The translations under genes and the position numbers were made by a program. This document shows, in pieces, positions 19,243-21,087 of a DNA stretch of 32,416 bases. Numbering within the stretch: position 1 is the first letter of the stretch; each line of letters opens with the position of its first letter. The stretch comes from Alphaproteobacteria bacterium (GTDB taxonomy: Bacteria; Pseudomonadota; Alphaproteobacteria; Reyranellales; Reyranellaceae). A model generated the notes under the pieces. It saw nothing but the letters and a program-made list of their open reading frames with translations. It did no database searches and was not told the origin of the DNA. The DNA is taken from the NCBI GenBank assembly GCA_019239835.1, contig JAFAZJ010000130.1:1-32416 (forward strand). Direction: 5' to 3'.

Positions 19243-19980
19243 TCAGCGCGTGCGCAGCAATGCGGCGAAGTTCGTCAGCTCATCGCGATTGAGATCAGAG
19301 ACAGCCTCGTAGCGCAGGCCGTCGGCCTGCCAGCTCTCGACATTGTAGCCCTGGAGCTGGCCGTTGACGGCCGCAGCCGTCGATCCGGCAGGCGCAATGA
19401 AGACGGTGATACGATGCTGGCGTCGGCCATAGATCAGCGCCGCCGCCGGCTTGCCGGCGACGTAGTCGACTCGACCGCTCAGCAACGGAAAGCCGTCATC
19501 GGCGAGGTCCGAGACGCGCGGGGAAAAGGCAAGCTTGCCGGCGAACCAAGGCTTGATCGCGTGCGGATTGCCCGAGCGCACGGAGCCGAAATCCTCCAGC
19601 GCCAGGCCCCGCACATGGGCGGTCACCAGATCGTTCATCGGCGCTGGATCGCGCAACGTCGCGCTCGCCACCAGCGCGACGGCGCCGGCGCCGAGAAGAG
19701 CCGCCGCCAGATGCGACGCGGCCATGCGCGCCCATGGCCGCTGGTTCGTCGGCACGGGCGCGCTCTGGGCCACGAGGCTGGTGATCCGCGTGGCCAGCCC
19801 ATCGGGTACCGGCTGCCGTCCGAGACCGCGCACGCGATCCGAAAGGGCGCGCAGGCTGGCGAGTTCGCGCGCACACGCGGCGCAGCCCTGCAGATGCGCC
19901 TCGACACGGGCGCAGTCCTCGGCGCCAAGCTCGCCGTCGTGATAGGCCTCCAGGAGGTCGCGGGCGTCGTCGCAGGTCAT
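19243..19980 (-). CDS. ZAS-type anti-sigma factor
   Basis: This 245-residue membrane anti-sigma has the zinc-binding motif Cys3-x25-His29-x3-Cys33-x2-Cys36 ('HLQGCAAC'), then one hydrophobic segment at about 86-108 ('MAASHLAAALLGAGAVALVA' continuing SATL) and a C-terminal periplasmic domain of about 135 residues with 'AALIYGRRQHRITVFI'. It would hold the adjacent ECF sigma factor at the inner membrane until a signal reaches the outer domain. Its ATG overlaps the sigma stop (ATGA, 19977-19980), the usual arrangement for sigma/anti-sigma stoichiometry. Confidence 0.94.
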   Translation of the reverse strand: MTCDDARDLLEAYHDGELGAEDCARVEAHLQGCAACARELASLRALSDRVRGLGRQPVPDGLATRITSLVAQSAPVPTNQRPWARMAASHLAAALLGAGAVALVASATLRDPAPMNDLVTAHVRGLALEDFGSVRSGNPHAIKPWFAGKLAFSPRVSDLADDGFPLLSGRVDYVAGKPAAALIYGRRQHRITVFIAPAGSTAAAVNGQLQGYNVESWQADGLRYEAVSDLNRDELTNFAALLRTR

Positions 19981-20510
19981 CGCTCGGCCTCGCGTGTCGG
20001 GGCCGCATTCTCGTCGAGCGCCTCGCGCAGCCGGGCGCGTGCCCGAGACAGGCGTGACATCACGGTGCCGATCGGCACCTCGGTGACGGTGGCGATCTCG
20101 GTGTAGCTCAGCTCCTCGATCTCGCGCAGAATCAGCGTCTCGCGTAAGCCATCGGGCAGGCGCTCGATGGCGGCATGGATGCGCGGGGCGTCGAGGCGGC
20201 TATCGGGCGGCGGGGAATTGTCGGCTTCGCTGGCGGCGGCCGGGCCGCGGAAGGCGAGATCGAGCGGGATGACGTTGCGCCAGCGCTCGCCGCGGCGGAA
20301 CGCGGTGCGGCAGGCGTTGCGCACGATCATCAGCAGCCACGGCTTGGGATCATCGCCGTGGAAGCCGTCGAAAGCGCGGAAGGCGCGCAGCAAGGCATCC
20401 TGGACCGCGTCTTCGGCGTCCTGGGGGTGTCGGGTGATCCAGCGCGCAAGATTGTAGGCCGCCGGCAGCAACGGCAGCACCTTGCGCTCGAACTCCTCGC
20501 GTCGGCCCAT
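19977..20510 (-). CDS. ECF-family RNA polymerase sigma factor
   Basis: This 177-residue sigma factor has region 2 ('AYNLARWITRHPQDAEDAVQ', 'DALLRAFRAFDGFHGDDPKPW' beyond) and region 4 ('LREIEELSYTEIATVTEVPI' followed by GTVMSRLSRARARLREAL). It redirects RNA polymerase to its own regulon and is probably controlled by the overlapping anti-sigma. Start at 20510 (MGRREEFERK) gives the normal ECF length; a TTG at 20564 would add 18 poor residues. No Shine-Dalgarno precedes 20510, and the predicted transcript start from the upstream GGGAATA element falls almost on the ATG, so translation may be leaderless. Confidence 0.94.
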   Translation of the reverse strand: MGRREEFERKVLPLLPAAYNLARWITRHPQDAEDAVQDALLRAFRAFDGFHGDDPKPWLLMIVRNACRTAFRRGERWRNVIPLDLAFRGPAAASEADNSPPPDSRLDAPRIHAAIERLPDGLRETLILREIEELSYTEIATVTEVPIGTVMSRLSRARARLREALDENAAPTREAER

Positions 20511-20519
20511 AGGTTCCAA

Positions 20520-20546
20520 GACTCTTCGATGACGCCTGATATTCCC
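20520..20546 (-). promoter_or_regulatory. Putative ECF promoter driving the sigma/anti-sigma operon
   Basis: Leftward GGGAATA (20546-20540), then 16 bp, then AGTC (20523-20520). GGAA-rich -35 and GTC-type -10 elements with about 16 bp spacing are normal for ECF promoters. The start site would be near 20510-20514, at the sigma ATG. The -35 shares the palindrome 20540-20553 with the rightward promoter. Confidence 0.6.
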
Positions 20547-20573
20547 GGGAATAGTGTGGGACAAGACCGAGTC
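20547..20573 (+). promoter_or_regulatory. Putative ECF promoter driving the cupredoxin-like gene
   Basis: Rightward GGGAATA (20547-20553), 16 bp, then AGTC (20570-20573) within AGTCGTC. The element and spacing are identical to the leftward one, and the two -35 boxes form the perfect palindrome TATTCCCGGGAATA (20540-20553). The start site would be near 20580-20584, about 25 nt before the cupredoxin ATG. Confidence 0.6.
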
Positions 20574-20607
20574 GTCCCTGCGCCATCATCGGATCAGGGA
20601 GATCGAT

Positions 20608-21087
20608 ATGCGAGCGAAATGGCTGAAGGCGGGTCTGGCGGGCGCCGTGGCGCTGGCCCTGGCGGCGACCGCGCGCGCCGAAACCCGCGAATTCTACATC
20701 GTCACCGTGCACCTCGACGCCAAGACCAACCCCGTGGCGGACGCCATGCATCCCGCCGAACCCTTCCCGTCCAGCCCGTTCCCCTCGACCAGCGGCATGT
20801 GGGTCAAGGGCCCGGCGGACAACGGCGACTGGTTCGTGCGCGCCTTCGTCTTCAATCCGTCGCAGGTCGTCGTCATGCAGGGCGACGACGTGGTGCTGCA
20901 TTTCGTCGGCGTGCAGGGCGCCGCGCACACCATCGCCGTCCAGGGCGTGGCCGAGCCGGTGAAGTTCACCCGCGGCACCACCGCCACGGTCAAGTTCAAG
21001 GCCGAGAAGCCGGGCATCGTCGATTTCGCCTCGACCGTGCTGACGCCCAGCATGCGCGGCCAGGTGATCGTCCTGCCAAAGAACTGA
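20608..21087 (+). CDS. Secreted cupredoxin-like protein lacking copper ligands
   Basis: This 159-residue protein has a signal peptide (MRAKWLKAGLAGAVALALAA, cleavage likely after TARA) and a cupredoxin domain: 'AFVFNPSQVVVMQGDDVVLH', 'GVQGAAHTIAV' and 'EKPGIVDFASTVLTPSMRG'. In copper-binding relatives the last segment reads F-x-C-x2-H-x2-M. Here Cys is Ser142, the second His is Leu145, and only His107 and Met149 remain; there is no cysteine anywhere in the protein. Copper binding of type 1 or CuA kind therefore looks lost. The ATG at 20608 has GGGAGA 5-6 nt upstream. It diverges from the ECF sigma gene across a shared promoter palindrome, so it is a likely regulon member and possibly linked to the envelope or redox signal sensed by the anti-sigma. 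Confidence 0.85.
   Translation: MRAKWLKAGLAGAVALALAATARAETREFYIVTVHLDAKTNPVADAMHPAEPFPSSPFPSTSGMWVKGPADNGDWFVRAFVFNPSQVVVMQGDDVVLHFVGVQGAAHTIAVQGVAEPVKFTRGTTATVKFKAEKPGIVDFASTVLTPSMRGQVIVLPKN

Follow-up and report, generated by a model that had tools for sequence, protein, structure and literature searches.

A compact divergent promoter pair with abutting -35 boxes, probably read in both directions by the neighboring ECF26-like sigma factor

Introduction

The locus described here raises the question of how one intergenic gap could serve two genes that point away from each other, one for an ECF sigma factor and one for a secreted cupredoxin-like protein, and whether transcription in one direction would affect the other. 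It lies in a 32,416-nucleotide stretch of alphaproteobacterial DNA, analyzed as a whole and called the window below. A sequence-only reading of the window had proposed that the gap holds back-to-back ECF promoters sharing one palindrome, that the sigma factor controls both its own operon and the divergent gene, that its message is near-leaderless, and that the fused -35 boxes may force polymerases to compete.

Parts of this arrangement have precedent. According to the excerpts of the literature drawn on here, S. meliloti has four ECF26 members, among them RpoE6, its ECF26 sigma factors recognize a -35 GGAATA / -10 GT promoter, and autoregulation together with a divergent target is already known for the group (PMC6180224). 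The promoters of Sinorhizobium RpoE1 have been mapped as GAAT-N18-GTCT (PMC3616915). Searches of an open-licence library gave no description of abutting ECF -35 boxes, of the gap classes reported below, or of the phosphoesterase/cupredoxin target set.

Methods

Scanned across the phylum, the paired pattern matched 3 of 398 genomes and its reversed control 6; the pattern alone is thus unspecific, and loci found by protein were used instead. Sigma loci were gathered by protein or profile search: 14 loci came from genome contigs, of which L015 and L016, the most distant two, were set aside, and additional draws gave 28/61 for Reyranellaceae, 32/65 for the sister genus g3, 15/385 for alphaproteobacteria, 25/250 and 31/399 (overlapping draws) for the order of a Collimonas-like genome, and 26/43 for another order. 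After removal of duplicates (L003, L018, L020, L022) and of two loci with less than 200 bp upstream, 116 loci were kept, among which some near-copy genomes may remain.

A strict divergent pair was defined as GGAATA, 15-17 bp and xGT on both sides with a gap of at most 60 bp, the gap being measured between the GGAATA cores (2 bp in the window), and loci lacking such a pair were scored as misses. In the count of changes between short and long gaps, L032 (gap 28) was excluded and L098 (gap 3, with a degenerate leftward -10) was classed as short by eye. For mapped promoters the transcript start was taken as the last printed base, from the lower-case marks and footnote of the source excerpt; a second, out-of-register match in two of the eight promoters (bases 7 and 14) was set aside.

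Results and Discussion

The promoter pair in the window

The perfect palindrome TATTCCCGGGAATA sits between the two divergent genes, and from it GGGAATA-N16-AGTC runs outward both ways (Table 1). Direct reading and a pattern search agree on this, and the positions given in the sequence-only reading for the palindrome (20540-20553), the sigma ATG (20510) and the predicted rightward start (about 20582) are correct. The two exact matches, 20520-20546 (-) and 20547-20573 (+), are the only ones in the window, where 100 dinucleotide shuffles give an expectation of 0.00. Degenerate matches (up to 2 mismatches, -10 RGTC) are not in excess, at 7 against 5.68 expected, so it is the exact pair alone that stands out. 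A search of the genome for the pattern upstream of other genes, which the earlier reading had suggested, returned no exact copy beyond the window pair in the 3.53 Mb of its own assembly (67% complete; reversed-pattern control 0), and the regulon therefore looks local. We also searched the gap for a sigma-70 promoter, a terminator, extra repeats and Rfam RNAs and found none.

Table 1. Positions of the genes and promoter elements of the divergent locus within the window
Feature	Position	Strand	Basis
Anti-sigma gene, 245 aa, zf-HC2; overlaps sigma stop by ATGA	19243..19980	-	domain match
ECF sigma factor gene, 177 aa, ECF26-like	19977..20510	-	domain and sequence comparison
Predicted start of sigma mRNA, bases 8-10 after GTC, at most 2 nt from sigma ATG	20510..20512	-	inferred from mapped Sinorhizobium ECF26-type starts
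Leftward -10 element AGTC, 16 bp from -35 element	20520..20523	-	pattern search and mapped consensus
Leftward -35 element GGGAATA, sigma/anti-sigma operon	20540..20546	-	ECF26-type consensus; recurs in homologues
Perfect 14-bp palindrome TATTCCCGGGAATA, two abutting -35 elements	20540..20553	.	sequence; 14/14 identical in same-genus relative G001
Rightward -35 element GGGAATA	20547..20553	+	pattern search
Rightward -10 element AGTC, 16 bp from -35 element	20570..20573	+	pattern search
Predicted start of rightward mRNA, leader about 25-27 nt	20581..20583	+	inferred from mapped Sinorhizobium ECF26-type starts
Shine-Dalgarno-like AGGGAG ahead of rightward gene	20596..20601	+	sequence
Secreted cupredoxin-like protein gene, 159 aa, predicted direct target	20608..21087	+	Cupredoxin_1 25 bits, just below 27-bit cut-off

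An ECF26-like sigma factor

A domain search finds only sigma regions 2 and 4 in the window sigma factor, which is the ECF architecture, and a zf-HC2 domain in the adjoining anti-sigma protein. Within a 20-kb ORF set the sigma factor shares 34.5% identity over 165 aa (E 2e-17) with S. meliloti RpoE6, an ECF26 member. The window boxes carry the ECF26 promoter signature, -35 GGAATA and -10 GT, and can be read as GAAT-N18-GTCT on the leftward side and GAAT-N18-GTCG on the rightward side. We therefore call the sigma factor ECF26-like, an assignment that draws on promoter, anti-sigma domain and RpoE6 similarity and not on the published group models.

Recurrence of the pair beside homologous sigma genes

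In the genus of the window the sigma system is present in two of four genomes. The relative that has it, G001, retains the palindrome at 14/14 positions and both AGTC boxes unchanged, while spacer and leader bases differ; its sigma factor is 94% and its cupredoxin-like protein 86% identical to those of the window. The prediction that close relatives with the gene pair would keep the pattern therefore holds in this one relative.

Comparison of homologous gaps, also suggested by the sequence-only reading, shows the pair again ahead of homologous sigma genes, in alphaproteobacteria as well as in betaproteobacteria. A strict divergent pair was present in 65 of the 116 loci (shuffled mean 0.0, reversed control 0), namely 31/37 in Reyranellaceae, 10/36 in other alphaproteobacteria and 24/43 in betaproteobacteria. 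It was absent from the remaining 51 (6/37, 26/36 and 19/43, respectively), several of which have variant boxes (e.g. CGAATAA, GATC) and some a promoter on the sigma side only. With boxes that match the mapped ECF26-type consensus, are kept in G001 and recur in homologues, divergent ECF promoters and self-regulation are well supported by comparison.

We consider it likely that the gap is a compact bidirectional promoter read both ways by the neighboring ECF26-like sigma factor. In this model the anti-sigma factor presumably restrains the sigma factor until an envelope signal arrives, whereupon the freed sigma would drive its own operon and the neighbor gene. Leftward transcription, predicted to begin no more than 2 nt from the sigma ATG, would yield both the sigma factor, which would amplify itself, and its zf-HC2 anti-sigma, which would act as the brake. 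The rightward transcript, with an ordinary leader that includes a Shine-Dalgarno sequence, would encode the secreted cupredoxin-like protein. One holoenzyme bound to the abutting -35 boxes should cover the other -35; because two polymerases would hardly fit together there, transcription in one direction probably shuts out the other when sigma is abundant. Competition between polymerases through the fused palindrome, as the sequence-only reading had it, is plausible on these geometric grounds.

Spacing between the two promoters

Abutment of the boxes is not general. Several lineages have compact forms of this kind, with gaps of 4 bp or less in the genus of the window, in g3, in another alphaproteobacterial family (L063, L064) and in betaproteobacterial loci (L084, L087), and in most relatives the boxes stand 9-57 bp apart. 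Across the 65 strict pairs the gap ranges from 1 to 57 bp, with peaks at 4, 14-15 and 21-24 and no case at 5-8, 10-11 or 17.

The clearest pattern is seen in g3, where the sequence within the gap is variable and its length falls into classes: 3-4 bp in 14 of 32 loci, 13-15 bp in 17 and 28 bp in one, with gaps of 5-12 bp in none. In a tree built from the sigma, phosphoesterase and anti-sigma proteins (35 rows) the short and long classes require six changes, as they do on 200 bootstrap trees, and well-supported branches alone force three. These recurrent jumps of about 10-11 bp, never stopping at 5-12, suggest that the boxes are held on one face of the DNA by a constraint of one helical turn. 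Across lineages the gaps cluster modestly by phase when a period of 10.5 bp is assumed (R = 0.356, p about 0.016, for 33 thinned values of up to 30 bp), periods of 10-11 fit equally, and the betaproteobacterial gaps of 18-22 bp fit helical phasing poorly.

The strongest alternative accepts both as ECF promoters and treats them as independent, abutment being a by-product of compaction and the gap preferences a mark of shared ancestry and not of exclusion or contact. We regard this as a serious possibility, if somewhat short of an even one. It would accommodate both the wide range of gaps and the modest outcome of the lineage-thinned phase test, and it agrees with the excerpted report on five E. 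coli bidirectional promoters, whose basal activity is too low for competition (PMC12825309). It sits less easily with g3, where 31 of the 32 gaps measure 3-4 or 13-15 bp despite free gap sequence and none of the six switches on the tree lands at 5-12 bp.

Taken further, the compact bidirectional promoter could be one member of a family of ECF sigma factors whose divergent promoters lie in helical register, with -35 boxes fused or about one to two turns apart, such that polymerases with that sigma would have to exclude or contact one another, and whose sigma message is near-leaderless. This broader proposal is tentative and we think it rather unlikely as a whole; were it true, each activation would go either to amplifying the sigma factor or to making the target, and the promoter itself would apportion activity between feedback and output. 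Independently of its fate, the relatives offer these two promoters in naturally occurring versions with gaps from 1 to 57 bp, including at least six switches of about one helical turn within one genus, in which the effect of proximity on self-amplification versus output is testable.

Many gaps of 21-35 bp have a central A/T tract. Such mid-gap tracts occur in gaps of 21-25 bp, often within GC-rich DNA, in L053, L054, L058-L060, L062, L078, L079, L120, L123 and L128, and, judged by eye, could possibly serve as a shared UP element.

Start of the sigma message

Counted from the GTC of its -10 box, the sigma ATG begins at base 10. Eight mapped ECF26-type promoters, in their natural reading, start at base 8-10 after GTC, five of them at base 9, which predicts a sigma leader of 0-2 nt and with it a near-leaderless mRNA. 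The ATG at 20510 is the likely translation start, given that an in-frame TTG upstream is followed by a stop in G001 and that F7 is invariant among 14 aligned sigma factors. Leaderless initiation exists in the class, as 171 leaderless mRNAs have been mapped in S. meliloti according to the excerpted account (PMC3616915).

The claim of a near-leaderless message thus finds support within the family, where an in-frame ATG lies 8-11 nt past the four-base -10 box in 30 of 31 Reyranellaceae strict-pair loci, compared with only 3 of 34 such loci outside it; it does not extend to betaproteobacteria in general. The companion claim, that the sigma gene has no Shine-Dalgarno sequence, stands insofar as the predicted transcript leaves no room for one, but in the window a GGAA does precede the ATG by 5-8 nt; G001 lacks it. 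If the prediction is correct, the sigma message is a further point of interest of the locus.

An internal GTG start (codon 11), or transcription mainly from an upstream promoter, would mean that the sigma mRNA is not leaderless. We judge this improbable: the GTG is in frame, 39 nt past the -10 box, and has GAGGAG 12 nt ahead of it, but the residues that precede it align with relatives, F7 among the 14 sequences does not vary, and no sigma-70-type promoter was found at 20400-20800.

Two variations on the leader deserve mention. In g3 a second in-frame ATG lies 9 nt on from the first; the tabulated loci (L029-L051) have two ATGs spaced by exactly 9 nt after the sigma promoter, and the intervening codons vary. 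The first ATG of L028 is not in frame. In L005, L006 and L022/L065 (Collimonas) the predicted transcript start coincides with an ATG from which a six-codon frame runs to a TGA directly before the sigma ATG, possibly a leaderless leader peptide; L009 and L010 have TGG in place of that TGA and the frame continues into sigma.

Comparison with known systems

The least credible explanation, and in our view a very improbable one, takes the palindrome as an operator bound by a dimeric regulator and the -10-like AGTC motifs as incidental, for while perfect symmetry and gap classes about one helical turn apart would also suit a dimer, the half-sites stand 1-57 bp apart in relatives, each with its own downstream xGT at N15-17, the half-site is the mapped ECF26 -35 box, and no regulator gene except sigma and anti-sigma was seen beside the window gap.

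As a putatively self-controlled ECF module, the locus most resembles the ECF26 systems of S. meliloti. RpoE1, RpoE4 and RpoE6, with their EcfR anti-sigmas, use the same -35 GGAATA / -10 GT promoter, RpoE1 and RpoE4 activate themselves, and ECF26 factors there have an adjacent membrane anti-sigma. In the excerpts available, RpoE6 is divergent to a target, as the window sigma is, and RpoE4 also drives a pseudoazurin operon, reminiscent of the cupredoxin-like target; the mapped promoter of rpoE6 itself, unlike the one predicted for the window sigma gene, is given as not ECF-type. The window differs further in that its target is cupredoxin-like (in relatives, a phosphoesterase and a cupredoxin), its -35 boxes abut and its sigma mRNA is predicted to be near-leaderless.

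The bidirectional promoters described in E. coli (Warman et al. 2026, PMC12825309) are, in the excerpted description, similar in that one pseudo-symmetrical sequence serves both directions and occupancy in one orientation would block the other. They show competition only under strong activation. Their -35 hexamers flank a central -10, whereas the order in the window is inverted, the -35 boxes meeting and the -10 boxes lying outside, so that this promoter pair does not belong to the E. coli type; it also differs in that its sigma factor is an ECF factor predicted to control itself. The EcfG general stress response, with nepR-ecfG divergent from phyR, likewise has both units driven by the local sigma factor, as we propose here, but it works by partner-switching and from another promoter, and no shared -35 palindrome appears in the excerpted description (PMC8103513).

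Predicted target genes

The identity of the gene facing the sigma operon goes with the promoter pair. In the 65 strict-pair loci it encodes a metallophosphoesterase in 58, a window-type cupredoxin in two and neither in five; one or the other thus faces 60/65 sigma genes with the strict pair, compared with 22/51 without it (a phosphoesterase in all 22), which indicates that promoter pair and gene pair travel together. A cupredoxin gene comes after the phosphoesterase in 47 of the 58 loci. The facing phosphoesterase has a Metallophos domain and, by eye, a Tat-like RRxFL at the start of the protein. In the genus of the window the phosphoesterase is not at this locus and the cupredoxin-like gene is the direct neighbor. 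ECF26-like sigma factors would have a metallophosphoesterase and a cupredoxin as conserved targets.

The rightward protein of the window matches cupredoxin and COX2 structures weakly at the sequence level; its single-sequence fold was poor (pLDDT 49.5) and nothing was drawn from the model. The cupredoxin-like proteins of the window genus (20608-21087 and L018) read FAST(V/A)LTPSM where L019 has CDTHQPSM, so that they lack the copper-ligand Cys and one His but keep an earlier His and the Met, and they may not bind copper in the classical manner. In L022 the second gene of the divergent operon (156-524, -) encodes a COX2-like cupredoxin with a CxxxCxxxHxxM motif, in which Met stands in place of what we take to be the first expected CuA His.
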